A DNA stretch of 64,000 bases from Armatimonadota bacterium (GCA_013178155.1 JABLXH010000017.1:1-64000), one strand, 5' to 3'. Numbered from the stretch's first letter, positions 53,658-62,995 are shown. The notes: generated from the letters alone by a model not told the origin. Numbers and translations: made by a program.

Positions 53658-55682
53658 GTGGACGCCGACGGAACCACGCTCCCCCGCTGGCTCACTTATC
53701 CCAACGAGCGGTGGCCAGTGGCCACTCCCGAAGAGGCGGGGTTCCGCCAGCCTGAGTTCGACCAACTCCTGGCTCGCTACGAGCCTCACCCCTCGACGTT
53801 CTGGGGTGAGAGGCACGCGCCAGGCGACTTCGGGGCGGTCCTCACGCGGGGTGGCTACATGGTCAAGACCTGGGGACGAGCTCACGACTACCGTTACCAG
53901 ACCGCTTCGGTTGGCAAAGCCTTCACTCTGGCGCTGTTGGGCCTGGCCGTGGAGAGACTGGGACTGGACCCGAATGAACCGGTATGTCACACCTGGACCG
54001 GCGCCGGTCAGATGTCCCACCCGCACAAGCAGATGGACGCCACTACCCAGCACGGCATTACCTGGCGCCACCTGGCTGAGCACACCGCCGGGTACGCCAT
54101 CGAGAACGCCGCCCACTGGCGTCGGGGGCTGCTACCGGAGGAACCGTGGATCCGGCGGGCCTGGTCCGGCGACCCTGACTTCGATATGTACGCTCTCCGG
54201 CCGCCGGGCGTCCGGTTCTACAGCAGTGCCAACTACGTTCGGCTCGGACAGGCCCTGACCGCGCTGTTCGCCGAGGACCTCAAGGCTGTCCTTGATCGCC
54301 AACTCCTGGGGCCCATTGGCATCCCGCCAGACCGCTGGGAGTGGCTGACGCTGGCCCAGGCCCATGCGGCGGTGGACCTGTACCCGGAGGCGCCGGGTTA
54401 CGGGCAGTATGCCGACCTGCCGCATGAGATCGGTGGCGTGCCGGTGCGGGGTGGCCCGGGCTGGGTCTGCATGTCTGCGGCAGACCTGGCGCGTTTCGGC
54501 TTGCTGGTGGCGACCGGTGGACTCTGGAAGGGCCAGCGGCTCCTGGGGTCCGAATGGCTCATCAGCAAGAGCGGCGGCAACGGGAGCACGATAGTCGGCG
54601 ACCGCCAGACCTTCATCGCCGGGGCGCGGGTCGCCACCGAGAACCTGCCGGGGTTTCTGTGGGTGCCAGACTTCACCGAGTACCGGTTCCCCCCGGAACT
54701 GCTCGCCCCAGAGGAGCCTTTCAGTGAGGGTCATGTACGGGAGGTTGCCATGCGCATCCTGGCGCTGTGCCTGATTGTCGTGGTATGCGGATGCATTCGC
54801 GGCTCCCGGCTCGCGGCCGAGGAGCCAACGCCGCAACTTCCGGCGGCCGAGGTCATCTTTGCCGAACCCTTCGAGGACGCCAACTGGGAGGACCGCGGCT
54901 GGTATGACGGGCCTCACATGCAACTGACCAGCGCCGAACACGTTGCCGGCAGCACCCGGTCCTGCGTCTGGCACTGGGAGAAGCCCGGCGACATCAGCCC
55001 GGCAGGCGGGGGCGCCCGGGCCCGGATCCGGCCTGTCGAGGACGTGACGCTGGAGTTCTCGATCAAGCACAGCGCCAACTGGGCGTGGACCGGGGTTCCC
55101 TATCACCCGCATGAGTTCCACTTCATCACTGATGTGGACCCAGCCTACATCGGCCCGGCGTGGACGCACCTGACCTTCTATATCGAGGTAGTCAACGGTC
55201 GGCCGCGAGTGGGCATCCAGGACGGAATGAACATTGACACGACCCGCATCGGGCAGGACCTGGTGGGGGTGACTGAGCAGCGTGCGGTTGCCGGTGGCAA
55301 CGGTGACTCGGACGGCTATGGCAAGGGCGACTGCTACAAGGCCGGAGACGAGTACCGCAATGGCAAGTTCTGGGGTCCCGATGAGGTCTACTTCAGCGAC
55401 GAGCCGGGCCCCCGCTACAAGGGCGACTGGCACCGCATCAAGGTGCGCCTGCGCCTCAACAGCGTTCGCGATGGCATCGGGCAGCGCGACGGGATCATCC
55501 AGTACTGGTACGACGGCCAGCTCATCATGGACTACCACGACGTGGTCTTCCGCACCGGCCAGCACCCGACCATGCGGCTCAACCAGTTCCTGATGACCCC
55601 GTATTTCGGTCCGGGCGTCCCGCACGAGCAGAGCATCTGGGTGGACGACCTGAAGATCACCACCCCGGCGCCAGCTAACTGA
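53658..55682 (+). CDS. Serine beta-lactamase-like domain joined in frame to an exported beta-sandwich protein
   Basis: One 674-residue open frame contains two unlike proteins. Residues 1 to about 364 are a class C beta-lactamase/penicillin-binding-like domain without a signal peptide: TASVGKAFTLALLGL supplies the S-x-x-K site and FYSSANYVRLG the Tyr motif. Codon 365 is an ATG (54750) with GGGAGG five bases upstream; what follows, MRILALCLIVVVCGC, is a signal or lipoprotein-like N-terminus, then a polysaccharide-lyase/LamG-like beta-sandwich (LEFSIKHSANWAWTGVPY). Either the first gene's stop codon has been lost or the fusion is real with an internal start. GTG 53658 is favoured over 53649 because the GGGGGAG RBS is then properly spaced. 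Confidence 0.7.
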   Translation: MDADGTTLPRWLTYPNERWPVATPEEAGFRQPEFDQLLARYEPHPSTFWGERHAPGDFGAVLTRGGYMVKTWGRAHDYRYQTASVGKAFTLALLGLAVERLGLDPNEPVCHTWTGAGQMSHPHKQMDATTQHGITWRHLAEHTAGYAIENAAHWRRGLLPEEPWIRRAWSGDPDFDMYALRPPGVRFYSSANYVRLGQALTALFAEDLKAVLDRQLLGPIGIPPDRWEWLTLAQAHAAVDLYPEAPGYGQYADLPHEIGGVPVRGGPGWVCMSAADLARFGLLVATGGLWKGQRLLGSEWLISKSGGNGSTIVGDRQTFIAGARVATENLPGFLWVPDFTEYRFPPELLAPEEPFSEGHVREVAMRILALCLIVVVCGCIRGSRLAAEEPTPQLPAAEVIFAEPFEDANWEDRGWYDGPHMQLTSAEHVAGSTRSCVWHWEKPGDISPAGGGARARIRPVEDVTLEFSIKHSANWAWTGVPYHPHEFHFITDVDPAYIGPAWTHLTFYIEVVNGRPRVGIQDGMNIDTTRIGQDLVGVTEQRAVAGGNGDSDGYGKGDCYKAGDEYRNGKFWGPDEVYFSDEPGPRYKGDWHRIKVRLRLNSVRDGIGQRDGIIQYWYDGQLIMDYHDVVFRTGQHPTMRLNQFLMTPYFGPGVPHEQSIWVDDLKITTPAPAN

Positions 55683-56658
55683 ACAGACGCAACTGGCCCT
55701 GGGCCTGTTCCCGTGGGGGCGGGGGCGTGTGGCGCCGGAAGCCCCGCAGGTGCAGGCACAGCTCGCGGATGTCCTGCGGGCCGTGCAGCGGAAGCGCACC
55801 CTCCTGCAGGAGCATCCGGTTCCCGGCGTGCTCCTCGCGGCCATCGCTCCAGTTGACAGCGTAGACTTCCCGGCCCTGGTGTCTGGCGTTTTCCGCCGTG
55901 GCCAGGCTGCCTCCGGTGAGGCGACACTCGACCACAATGACCGCCCGGCTGAGAATGCTTGTCAGACGGTTACGGGCCATCAGGTTGGGCACCGTCGGCT
56001 GAGCCCGGGGCGGCAGCTCGGAGAGCACCGCGCCCTGGCGCCTGATGCGGGCGGCCAGGGGGGCGTTCTCCTCGGGCTGAACGTTCAGGATGCCGCTGCC
56101 AAGGACAGCAATAGTCCGGCCATCGGCGGTGAGGGCGCCGAGATGGGCGGCGGTGTCGATGCCTCGCGCCAGCCCGCTGACGGTAGTGAAGTCCTCACTG
56201 CCCAGAGCCCGCGCGATATCCCCGGCCAAGTCCGCCCCCGCCGCGGTCGGCGTTCGCGTACCCACGACGGCTACCGCCAGGTCGTCCAGCGGGACCAGCT
56301 CACCCGCTACACACACCACCGGCGGGGGATGGGGCAACTCGCGCAAGGGACGGGGATAGGCAGGGTCGGGCGAGAAGTGCACGGCCACTTCGTGCAACGC
56401 CAGGTCCCGCAGGTCGTCTTCGAAGCTTTCCAGGTTCTCGCGCAGGAATGGAATGGTGGCAGCCTGTTCGGCTCTCAGCCTCGCCTCCCCATGCACCAGG
56501 TCCGAGGGCTCCGCCTGCAGCGCCTCCAGAGCACTCCCGAAGACCTTCAAGGCTCGCGCGAAGCCCGCCGGTCCCAGCTCAGCCCCCCAACTCAGGGCCA
56601 GCCAAGCCAGTCGCTCGTCGGCTGGCAGGACATGCTCGGGGGCGGGGCGCACAGACAC
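55675..56658 (-). CDS. dprA: DNA processing protein DprA (Smf)
   Basis: A 327-residue DprA homologue that loads RecA onto incoming single-stranded DNA during natural transformation. The Rossmann core has VAVVGTRTPTAAGADLA, FTTVSGLARGIDTAAHLG and FNLMARNRLTSILSRAV-like PNLMARNRLTSILSRAVIVV followed by GGSLATAENA. An N-terminal SAM-like helical region precedes it. The start is GTG 56658, ten bases after the stop of the upstream protease gene. The end overlaps the convergent beta-lactamase-like frame by eight bases. Confidence 0.93.
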   Translation of the reverse strand: MSVRPAPEHVLPADERLAWLALSWGAELGPAGFARALKVFGSALEALQAEPSDLVHGEARLRAEQAATIPFLRENLESFEDDLRDLALHEVAVHFSPDPAYPRPLRELPHPPPVVCVAGELVPLDDLAVAVVGTRTPTAAGADLAGDIARALGSEDFTTVSGLARGIDTAAHLGALTADGRTIAVLGSGILNVQPEENAPLAARIRRQGAVLSELPPRAQPTVPNLMARNRLTSILSRAVIVVECRLTGGSLATAENARHQGREVYAVNWSDGREEHAGNRMLLQEGALPLHGPQDIRELCLHLRGFRRHTPPPPREQAQGQLRLFS

Positions 56659-60325: not shown

Positions 60326-62938
60326 CTAGCTCGCAATCAGCACCTCCTCCGGGCTGAGGTCGAGGCGCAGGCCGTGGCGCGGGACAGTCACCAGAATCCG
60401 CCGCACATCGCGGTCGGGCACTGCCTTCGCCAACTTGGCGCACAGCCGGCTGCGATGGGAGTATATCTGTCCGGGTTCCACAAACCGGTCGCCATTCCAG
60501 AGCCGGTTGTAGAGCGTGTCGTAGCGCACGCACTTGCCCGGTGCTTCGGCCAGCGCGCGCAGAAGCCGGTATTCGGCCGGGCGCAAGTCAACACGCTGAC
60601 CGCAGAACACTGCCTCGTCTGGCCGCCCCTCATCAAGCACGAGGACTGGCTCGGTGGCCACTGCCGGTGTCCGTGCGAGTCCGGGGCCGCCTCTGTCAGT
60701 GAGCGACGGAGCCGGTCGCCCGGCCGGCGGCGAAGCGGCGGCGATGGCGCCACCAGCGCGGCGGAGCCTGTCGGCCACCACCGGACCCACCAGACTGGCG
60801 AGCCACTCTGCCGGCGCCTGGGCGGCCTCGCGGGGTGACCGCACGCCCTCGGCGACCAGTCGCCGGATCTGGTCGCGGCTCAGACCAGGCAGGCGTAGAC
60901 GCCCCAGAGCGACACCCGCTGCCGGCAACCCCAGGGCCAGGCGTTCCGCGTGCTGGCGCAGGCGGTCGCAGTCGGACGGTGACCACCCCTGCTCCGCCCC
61001 TATGGCGGCCAGCGTTTCCACGAGCCAGCCGGTTGTCTCGCCCAACGTCGCCAGGCGAGCCGCCGTCGTCCGCAGCTCCTCCTCAAGCAGGGCTGTCGCT
61101 TCGTCACCGACCCACCGCTGCAGAACCAGCGCCTGCCGGGCGGCCTCCTGCCGCAACGCGCGACTCCGGATCCCCGTCGCCAGCGCCTGCGCCAGGACGC
61201 CGGTGCCCTCACCTAGCTGCGCGGCCAGAGCTCTGAGCTGCGCACCGTAATCTACAGTCTGGCTCAAGTGGAAGGGGGGCGCCCACTCGGCCATGGCCTC
61301 ACAGCTCAGGAGGGCGACGTAAGTTGCCTCCAGGTTCGTCAGCGCCTCGCCCTCTACCCACTGCTTCAACCACACGAAGGTGTGGTGGCTGATCCCGGCA
61401 GCAGCCACGACCCGGCCCAGAGCCGTGGGCACCAGACGTCGGCCCCCGGCCTCGGAGCGTAGCAGTCCCTGACGTTCACACTCGCTCAGGCCCGAGGCGA
61501 GGCGAGCCGGTAGCACTGCATCTCCTGCCCAGTAGGCCGTAAACGTGCGCGTGTAGGCGCTCTGTATGTCTCGGGCATGGCGACTATCGGCAACCGCGGC
61601 GAGCTGAACGGCAGCGTCCGTGGCCTCCATATGGCTCAGCGCAGGCTCCGCCAACTCCGGTGTCCCCTCCACGTAGCGCTGCCAAAGACTGACCTGAGCC
61701 AGCGGCGAGTCGGCCAGCAATATGGCCCGCCCAAACTCGCTGTGACCCAGGCGTCCGGCCCGGCCGGCACGGTTTTCATACTCGCCAGCCGAGATCGGGC
61801 GGAGCATCGCTGGCCCCCCGCGGTCCTCGCACTGCCAGCTCCACGGATCAATGATCACGTTCTGCGCCGGGAGATTCACGCCCAGGGCCAGGGTGGGCGT
61901 TGCACACACCACCTGGATCTGCCCGGCGCGGAAGGCGGCCTCCACGCGCTGGCGATCGTCGAATAGCAGATCGGCGCTGTGGAAGGCCACGCCGCTGGGC
62001 ATAAGGCGATCCAACTGCCGCTGCACGACACTCTGCCCCGTCTCCTCTCCTCCCTCCCAGGGGGCTTCCCTGTCGGGCGTGAGAGCTCTCGCCAGTCGCC
62101 AGGCCAGCGCCACCACGGCCCCGCGGTCCCGGGTAAAGACCAGCGTACTCTCGCCCCGTCGCGCCAGGAACGCGGCGAGCCGCGTAGCCGCATCGGCGTA
62201 GCTGTCACCTGGACACACTCCGGCGCCCGCGAACTCCTCTGTGGCCAGACGGCCGCTGTTGTGCTCGCGGTACTCAAACGTATCACCGCTGAGCACTCCC
62301 CGGCGCAGTTCAACAGGCCGCCAGGTGCTCTCGAGCCAGCCCGCATGGAGATACTCCGCGAGGCGAGGCGAGGTTCCCAGGCACGCCGACAGCCCGATGA
62401 TCTGCACGCCTGGCATCTGTCGCAGTTCAGCCAGCAGCACCTCCAGGCATGGCCCCCGCTGGGCATCAGCCAGCATCTGCAGCTCATCTACGACTACCAG
62501 CCCTAACCCGGCCAATCCGGCACCTGAACGCACCCACAGGGAACGCAGTTTCTCCGGGACTACTACGCCCAGGTCATAGTCACCCCGCAGCAGGCGCTGG
62601 TCATCGCTGCGCCGGTCGCGCGTGCTGACCGCTACGCGCAGACCCAACGAGCCATAGGCCCGGTCGAAATGAGCGAACTTTTCTTCAGCTAGGGCTCTGG
62701 TCGGGGCCAGGTACAGAACACGCTGACCGGCCAGGGCAGCGCGACTGGCCGCCATCTCCCCGATAAACGTCTTGCCGGCGCTGGTCGGCGCCTGGACGAT
62801 GAGGTTGGCGCCAGCCAAGACACCATACCTGGTTACAGCTTCCTGCTGGATAGGGAGCAGCTCGGGACCGAGATGTGACTCCCACACCTGCAGAAGACGT
62901 GACGGCACGCCAAAGGCTTCCAAGGAACGGATGAGCAT
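60326..62938 (-). CDS. Ski2/Hel308-like DNA helicase with C-terminal OmpR/PhoB-type DNA-binding domain
   Basis: An 870-residue SF2 helicase. QQEAV forms the Q-motif, Walker A is APTSAGKTFIGEM (50-62), motif II DELQ (151-154) replaces DEAH-type boxes, motif III reads GLSACLG, motif V TPTLALGVNLPA and motif VI EYENRAGRAGRLG. A winged helix and ratchet helical region follow, as in Hel308. The last about 90 residues form a Trans_Reg_C winged helix (LRPAEYRLLRALAEAPGKCV, then QIYSHRSRLCAKLAKAV and RRILVTVPRHGLRLDL). This OmpR-type domain on a repair helicase is unusual. The promoter is a consensus sigma-70 with a LexA-like box in its spacer, so the gene is likely SOS-induced. Confidence 0.9.
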   Translation of the reverse strand: MLIRSLEAFGVPSRLLQVWESHLGPELLPIQQEAVTRYGVLAGANLIVQAPTSAGKTFIGEMAASRAALAGQRVLYLAPTRALAEEKFAHFDRAYGSLGLRVAVSTRDRRSDDQRLLRGDYDLGVVVPEKLRSLWVRSGAGLAGLGLVVVDELQMLADAQRGPCLEVLLAELRQMPGVQIIGLSACLGTSPRLAEYLHAGWLESTWRPVELRRGVLSGDTFEYREHNSGRLATEEFAGAGVCPGDSYADAATRLAAFLARRGESTLVFTRDRGAVVALAWRLARALTPDREAPWEGGEETGQSVVQRQLDRLMPSGVAFHSADLLFDDRQRVEAAFRAGQIQVVCATPTLALGVNLPAQNVIIDPWSWQCEDRGGPAMLRPISAGEYENRAGRAGRLGHSEFGRAILLADSPLAQVSLWQRYVEGTPELAEPALSHMEATDAAVQLAAVADSRHARDIQSAYTRTFTAYWAGDAVLPARLASGLSECERQGLLRSEAGGRRLVPTALGRVVAAAGISHHTFVWLKQWVEGEALTNLEATYVALLSCEAMAEWAPPFHLSQTVDYGAQLRALAAQLGEGTGVLAQALATGIRSRALRQEAARQALVLQRWVGDEATALLEEELRTTAARLATLGETTGWLVETLAAIGAEQGWSPSDCDRLRQHAERLALGLPAAGVALGRLRLPGLSRDQIRRLVAEGVRSPREAAQAPAEWLASLVGPVVADRLRRAGGAIAAASPPAGRPAPSLTDRGGPGLARTPAVATEPVLVLDEGRPDEAVFCGQRVDLRPAEYRLLRALAEAPGKCVRYDTLYNRLWNGDRFVEPGQIYSHRSRLCAKLAKAVPDRDVRRILVTVPRHGLRLDLSPEEVLIAS

Positions 62939-62966: not shown

Positions 62967-62995
62967 ATGTTATCAAACACTTGTTCGACTGTCAA
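62967..62995 (-). promoter_or_regulatory. Promoter of the helicase gene
   Basis: On the minus strand TTGACA (62995-62990) and TAACAT (62972-62967) are separated by 17 bases. The predicted leader is about 22 bases to ATG 62938. Confidence 0.8.
62974..62987 (-). promoter_or_regulatory. LexA/SOS-box-like operator in the helicase promoter
   Basis: The minus strand reads CGAACAAGTGTTTG, 13 of 14 positions of the Gram-positive-type LexA consensus CGAACRNRYGTTYC. It lies between the -35 and -10 hexamers, where a repressor would block polymerase. The LexA gene is not in the window. Confidence 0.65.

Follow-up and report, generated by a model that had tools for sequence, protein, structure and literature searches.

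Hel308 has mostly been regarded as an enzyme of archaea and eukaryotes. OmpR/PhoB proteins, for their part, recognise particular chromosomal sites and promoters, and in the SOS response DNA damage leads to RecA-stimulated cleavage of LexA. A 2009 structural paper described Hel308 as apparently unique to archaea and presented its domain 5 as a brake, with 3' tails exiting nearby (PMC2636818). Archaeal hel308 mutants are mitomycin sensitive, and on a model fork the enzyme specifically removes the lagging strand (PMC10484726). In the winged helices of PhoB and KdpE, loss of the phosphate-contact Arg (PhoB R203, KdpE R200) abolishes DNA binding (PMC3264566).

Here we describe a bacterial protein that apparently joins ordinary parts of these kinds in an undescribed combination, behind an informative promoter. 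It is encoded in a 64,000-nucleotide stretch of Armatimonadota DNA, the whole of which we call the window. A sequence-only reading of the window had proposed a Hel308-like helicase in which an OmpR/PhoB-type winged helix takes the place of the usual C-terminal domain, and it knew of no characterised protein so arranged; our literature searches likewise found none, nor any description of a Hel308 protein with an OmpR-type winged helix.

A complete Hel308 helicase with an added domain

The gene occupies 60326..62938 on the minus strand, starts with ATG, and is open over 870 codons, encoding an 870-aa Hel308-type SF2 helicase with a C-terminal OmpR/PhoB-type winged helix. The Hel308-like core is borne out: Pfam places DEAD at residues 29-188 (E 9.4e-26) and Helicase_C at 317-398 (E 1.1e-7), the best curated families are the archaeal Hel308 models of NCBIfam, which cover residues 7-725 (E 7.5e-91), and Ski2-like motifs I, Ia, II, III, V, and VI are all present. 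The scores fall far below the NCBIfam equivalog cut-offs (NF002654, 305.5 versus 887 bits, E 7.5e-91; NF040935, 205.4 versus 1200 bits, E 1.2e-60), and strong E-values combined with missed equivalog cut-offs place the protein on the same superfamily branch as Hel308, not among archaeal-type equivalogs.

Based on Pfam matches and motifs, and for the first also on alignment to Hel308 in the PDB, we assign domain 1 (RecA1, residues ~1-205, with APTSAGKT and DELQ; 62324..62938, on the minus strand like all the features described here) and domain 2 (RecA2, residues ~206-430, with motif IVa AFHSADL and motif VI ENRAGRAGR; 61649..62323), both with approximate boundaries. Fold match to Hel308 and secondary structure place domains 3 and 4, the winged helix and the ratchet helix bundle, at residues ~431-670 (60929..61648); the Pfam family of domain 4 (PF21280) is matched in relatives, with no call in the window protein itself. 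Residues ~671-733 (60740..60928) match the helix-hairpin-helix (HhH) domain V of Hel308 by NCBIfam, by PDB alignment, and by helices at 688-735. A flexible linker follows (residues ~734-763; 60650..60739), with pLDDT <50 at 737-761 and a pairwise identity of 0.17, and then the added winged helix (764-870; 60329..60649).

An AlphaFold2 model built with an alignment of 23 orthologues (mean pLDDT 87.6) leaves residues 737-761 disordered and, set against whole Hel308 chains, shows domains 3, 4, and 5 in the Hel308 order. Hel308 chains top the Foldseek PDB list (TM by target 0.84 over ~740 columns), polymerase theta coming next, and Hel308 also ranks first in a PDB sequence search, in which a weak second stretch (601-733) spans domains 4-5. 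The window protein is a complete five-domain Hel308 helicase (residues 1-733) plus a linker and a C-terminal winged helix. Thus, the proposal that the winged helix replaces the usual C-terminal domain does not stand: the protein retains domain V and carries the winged helix beyond it.

The winged helix and its rewritten surface

The match of the C terminus to Trans_reg_C is genuine. PF00486 is found at residues 780-857 with an E-value of 9e-10 and a score of 38.9 bits, above the gathering cut-off of 26.2, and, when the C-terminal 158 aa are searched alone, with an E-value of 6.1e-11; a profile of 39 helicase winged helices finds in the PDB the DNA-binding domains of BaeR (E 1.1e-13, the best), ArlR (~3.8e-13), and PhoB (1.6e-11). 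In the AlphaFold2 secondary structure the N-terminal beta sheet (strands 766-769, 775-778, and 781-784), three helices (alpha1 787-797; alpha2 806-814, preceded by a strand at 803-805; and alpha3, the recognition helix, 823-839), and the C-terminal wing (strands 849-852 and 856-859) are all in place at 766-869, and an extra strand at 866-869 lies beyond the canonical elements. The pLDDT of the folded region 764-870 is mostly 84-96, with one block at 72, so the wing (849-859) and recognition helix, whose integrity had been left for structure prediction to show, are intact (pLDDT ~72-96). No receiver domain was found in the window protein by Pfam scan.

What might such a domain do on a helicase? 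Its conservation suggests that it matters. Mean pairwise identity is 0.57 for RecA1, 0.49 for RecA2, 0.31, 0.35, and 0.36 for domains 3, 4, and 5, 0.17 for the linker, and 0.50 for the winged helix, and dN/dS values of 0.13-0.22 in four pairs show, as far as codon comparisons can, strong purifying selection on the winged helix. As its identity matches that of the motor domain (0.50 versus 0.49 for RecA2), something appears to depend on the winged helix just as much as on the motor.

The residues with which OmpR/PhoB domains contact DNA have largely changed, as judged against 15 response-regulator domains drawn from the same genomes. The position of PhoB R203 and KdpE R200 is C833 here, and only 2 of the 39 helicase domains have Arg there, against 15/15 response regulators; that of PhoB R193 is G823, never Arg in helicase domains versus 13/15. 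The position of PhoB R201 is R831 (Arg or Lys in 23/39), and that of PhoB T217 is T851 (Thr kept in 33/39). Conserved positions specific to the helicase domains are Q824 (37/39), Y806 (33/39), Y810 (31/39), and V866 (36/39), and new basic residues stand on the recognition helix and wing at 829 (36/39), 854 (32/39), and 855 (Arg in 26 and His in 9, or 35/39). The extra C-terminal strand is common to both subtypes of the helicase winged helix, the second of which is described below, and response regulators are without one. Because the canonical contact Arg is mostly lost, the claim of an OmpR-like mode of DNA binding is weakened, and, with the contact positions remodelled, any DNA binding or specificity of the winged helix is something we infer. 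In total, the surface appears conserved but rewritten, which is compatible with duplex or fork binding in an altered mode or with a protein partner.

We consider the second of these possibilities, a docking module that brings an SOS-induced helicase to a partner such as the clamp, SSB, RNA polymerase, or a repair protein, rather than to DNA, to be the less probable one, although it deserves serious attention. The loss of the canonical DNA-contact Arg alongside strong conservation of Q824, Y806, Y810, and V866 would suit it, as would the extra strand that response regulators lack, and the C-terminal PCNA-binding motif (PIP box) of PfuHjm (PMC2636818) is a precedent for docking through the C terminus. 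The new basic residues at 829, 854, and 855, the retention of T851 in 33/39 domains, and the lack of any partner gene conserved beside the helicase gene all speak against it. The alternative that we carry forward is that the winged helix acts as a tether to duplex DNA, to which we give an even chance.

Distribution, origin, and neighborhood

The fusion proves to be conserved in Armatimonadota and beyond. Strong matches, most of them full length or cut by contig ends, occur as a vertical-looking single copy in 31 of the 41 genomes of the window's order, and the full-length two-part protein is present in 20 or more other genomes of its class. Among 151 genomes sampled over the phylum, the two-part protein was found only in that class, and the carriers belong, by their named relatives, to Candidatus Zipacnadia / WS1 (Armatimonadota). 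Outside the phylum, the same architecture occurs in Hydrogenedentota, BRC1/Sumerlaeota, and Atribacterota, in one truncated Coatesbacteria protein, and, weakly, in one Myxococcales protein. A divergent C-terminal form is carried by 11 more proteins (from Planctomycetota, Zixibacteria, GN15, Hatepunaea, UBP4, and Myxococcales, and one unclassified). Pfam Trans_reg_C gave no match in the eight divergent-group proteins tested; the divergent domain can nevertheless be aligned with the winged helix, extra C-terminal strand included, hhalign finds the two homologous (probability 95, E 2.4e-8), and a model of the divergent domain (pLDDT 92) has the ArlR DNA-binding domain as its best PDB match (probability 0.99, E 0.046). 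An OmpR-type winged helix was absent from the proteins of Binatia, the archaeal Hel308s, and the Hymenobacter/Sphingobium/cyanobacterial-type proteins compared.

Several observations arose alongside this survey. Decayed helicase copies in two genomes of one genus (L143, G018:C40, 2140-2668; L144, G021:C63, 1668-2301), in which residues 1-57 run almost directly into 207-286 and most of the RecA1 core is missing, represent loss of the helicase gene within the order. A minus-strand ORF of 1035 aa elsewhere in the phylum (L141, G047:C37) encodes a Hel308-like relative with ~270 extra N-terminal residues and without the winged helix. Paenibacillus pinisoli (L083, 10001-12748) has a Hel308-like protein with a different C-terminal extension (GEPDLSMELNNGQVYTIQVTAKEDK), which by eye resembles a restriction-endonuclease-type nuclease domain. 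A record titled as a Klebsiella pneumoniae metagenome-assembled genome (L063) clusters with the Binatia proteins and is almost certainly mislabelled.

Could the fusion be an artefact of annotation or assembly, or a chance joining to a response-regulator gene that happened recently? In several genomes of family f5 and in one f3 genome (L114-L116, L118, L120, and L121), the helicase does have an OmpR-type response regulator within a few kb. The idea is nonetheless already refuted: the ORF is uninterrupted in many independent assemblies and phyla, and in the domain tree the nearby regulators cluster with other regulators and not with the helicase domain, which also disposes of the nearby f5 genes as the source of the winged helix. 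The recurrence of the same uninterrupted protein across genomes of the class and in other phyla rules out both an assembly chimera and a chance match, and we hold it as close to certain that the fusion of a Hel308 helicase with a winged helix is real and ancient.

In the domain tree, 40 helicase winged helices are split from 15 response-regulator domains by one branch (support 100/99, in 200/200 bootstrap trees), and profile scores in the same genomes are 110-151 bits for helicase-borne domains and 63 for the best other domain. On these trees and scores, common descent of the helicase-borne winged helices is shown. In the helicase tree, 51 of the 54 rows of one bacterial group have the winged helix, and the trait needs three changes, for which one gain and two losses suffice; a single gain with later losses is the most economical interpretation but, the deep branches of this tree being weak (59), not a proven one. 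Two separate acquisitions, of the classic and of the divergent winged helix, are disfavoured by the hhalign homology and the shared C-terminal strand. An early helicase tree without a mixture model had scattered the trait over six changes, in part because divergent domains were scored as absent.

Beyond synteny among close relatives, no conserved operon or partner gene was found. On the 3' side of the helicase the window encodes an MscS beta domain, Peptidase_MA_2, PDDEXK_1, M50, and DprA. The PD-(D/E)XK nuclease gene (PF12705; 57852-58736, plus strand) is convergent with the helicase gene, and its product has a cysteine-rich C terminus (CRWCRSRAGC) and is Cas4/AddB-like by eye. The DprA gene (PF02481, E 4.8e-57; 55675-56658, minus strand) adjoins an M50-CBS peptidase gene, and in genome G001 the two are found in synteny with the helicase.

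PADLOC models of HamB match the SF2 core (E 1.9e-28), which raises the idea of an anti-phage defence helicase like HamB of Hachiman. We consider this very improbable: the Hel308 models give a far better fit, one that spans the full length (E 7.5e-91), the gene is a vertical-looking single copy in 31/41 genomes of the order, neither HamA nor another conserved partner is adjacent in relatives, and the promoter is of LexA type.

A LexA-type operator in the promoter

Upstream of the helicase ATG lies TTGACA-17 bp-TAACAT (62995..62967; 10/12 consensus), made up of a -35 hexamer TTGACA (62990..62995), a 17-bp spacer, and a -10 hexamer TAACAT (62967..62972). A putative LexA/SOS operator, CGAACAAGTGTTTG, sits in the spacer (62974..62987; 20-bp box 62971-62990), a feature that the sequence-only reading had not mentioned. 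The box fits the Gram-positive LexA consensus CGAACRNRYGTTYC (PMC2248561) in all but the last base, is kept in relatives, and is shared with lexA promoters. GAACN4GTTY stands between -35 and -10 in 15 of 16 helicase promoters of three families (TTGACA-N17 spacer), and those of a fourth family have GAATN4GTTC variants. With a matrix built from 15 helicase-promoter sites, the window site itself among them and lexA sites not used, the window site scores 25.1 and the next best in the 64-kb window 11.7. Just upstream of lexA, in the helicase's own genome and in nine related ones, lies a box of this kind, and no other site in the lexA locus scores higher; the LexA of its own genome is a clear equivalog (227.8 versus 110.95 bits).

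We surveyed the SOS regulon of the 5.5-Mb genome by pattern matching. CRAACN4GTTYGNTA has three matches there (lexA, the window helicase, and a site inside one unrelated gene), against none for the reversed control, and when a -35 is added, with at most one mismatch allowed, the pattern finds only the window helicase and a DUF6504-DnaE polymerase cassette. The latter (L170, G000:C33, 1501-3025) has an SOS-type promoter with TTGACTATAGAACATTTGTTTGATATAAT ahead of DUF6504 and a DnaE-family polymerase and is probably a LexA-controlled mutagenesis cassette. No box was found within the recA locus.

In Hydrogenedentota the operator is different. TGAAN6TTCA, its halves with up to two mismatches, occurs in 13/13 helicase promoters, in the order TTGACA-like element (TTGAAA in one), TGAAN6TTCA, GTATAcT, and it is the top site just upstream at the main lexA locus of 5/5 genomes. 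The lexA promoters of this phylum carry CTGAAN6TTCAG (L152-L156, positions ~1456-1721), apparently the LexA operator of Hydrogenedentota. These promoter comparisons show that in two phyla the core promoter contains a LexA-type operator, whose sequence differs from one phylum to the other. It is hard to see what other than LexA control would give each phylum an operator of its own that its lexA and helicase promoters share, and we posit that the helicase gene is very probably under LexA (SOS) control, a claim grounded in Zipacnadia and Hydrogenedentota only.

These palindromes also bear on the suggestion that the winged helix loads the helicase sequence-specifically at particular chromosomal sites or promoters. 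The fold is a genuine PF00486 domain with recognition helix and wing intact, as such loading would call for. Against it, the base- and phosphate-contact positions are remodelled and vary between lineages, the protein has no receiver or dimerisation domain, and such conserved palindromes as were found are all LexA boxes that go with lexA, which argues against their being the helicase's own target. The link to promoters drawn by the sequence-only reading finds no backing in a protein without a receiver domain and a gene without a conserved neighbour, and we regard such loading as improbable.

Proposed mechanism and meaning

The account toward which we lean is that of a LexA-controlled Hel308/HELQ-type repair helicase with a winged helix that tethers the motor to branched DNA. 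By analogy with Hel308, the protein is in all likelihood a DNA-repair helicase, and the LexA switch in its promoter implies that it is probably a damage-induced one. In this model, DNA damage would lead to LexA cleavage and derepression of the helicase gene, and the Hel308 motor would then act at forks and recombination intermediates. As Hel308 biology suggests, the motor would translocate 3'-5' on single-stranded DNA by means of its ratchet helix and unwind forked or recombination intermediates, most likely on the lagging-strand side of stalled forks. Held by a tether of ~30 residues, the winged helix would sit behind domain V, at the exit of the 3' strand, in a position to grip the adjoining duplex or a partner. 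We speculate that it binds nearby duplex DNA and so holds the motor on branched DNA, the step of which we are least sure, and we propose that, because there is no receiver domain, this binding would need no phosphorylation.

We slightly favor a broader view in which the protein represents an ancient, undescribed bacterial Hel308 subfamily, an SOS-controlled counterpart of HELQ, with a repurposed OmpR-type winged helix, LexA control in at least two phyla through unrelated operators, and a former transcription-factor domain that, free of the phosphorelay, has become a DNA- or partner-targeting module. What is at hand is a widespread bacterial branch of Hel308 that an extra domain sets apart as a clade and that in two phyla has a damage-response promoter, which makes SOS repair a testable role. 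It also shows that a non-signalling motor protein can hold on to a response-regulator output domain through deep evolutionary time while the residues for DNA contact are rewritten, and comparing helicase with regulator winged helices would reveal what changes once gene regulation is lost. The two lineage-specific LexA operators are of use, too, in delineating SOS regulons in phyla of which few or no members have been cultured.

Comparison with known systems

The helicase domain of DNA polymerase theta is the next best fold family after Hel308 (TM by target ~0.67-0.78), with lower sequence similarity; theta is without the OmpR-type domain, and no polymerase is fused in the window protein. The proteins of Binatia and of the Hymenobacter/Sphingobium/cyanobacterial type are Hel308-like helicases too, of 750-816 aa, but they end after domain V or are without the OmpR-type domain, and the latter type forms a separate clade. 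The OmpR/PhoB-family regulators BaeR, ArlR, and PhoB share the fold and sequence of their effector domain with the window winged helix, whereas the helicase domain lacks the receiver, has mostly lost the phosphate-clamp Arg, and has gained Q824, basic residues at 829, 854, and 855, and the extra C-terminal strand.

The closest systems are archaeal Hel308/Hjm (Archaeoglobus fulgidus 2P6R, Pyrococcus furiosus 2ZJ8) and metazoan HELQ, with which the window protein shares the five-domain SF2 Ski2-like architecture (TM by target 0.84), motifs I-VI, the ratchet Trp (W638 here), and the domain V HhH. The equivalent of A. fulgidus R592 is not conserved in place in the PDB alignment (T631 here), and a conserved R628 lies about one helix turn earlier. 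The archaeal motif IVa, FHHAGL, tunes annealing and unwinding (PMC10484726); the window protein departs from A(F/Y)HHAGL with AFHSADL, and its bacterial clade has FH[SN]ADL, keeping the F and the first H, so these activities may differ. Unlike Hel308 and HELQ, finally, the window protein is bacterial, carries an extra C-terminal winged helix on a linker, and is preceded by a LexA-type promoter.
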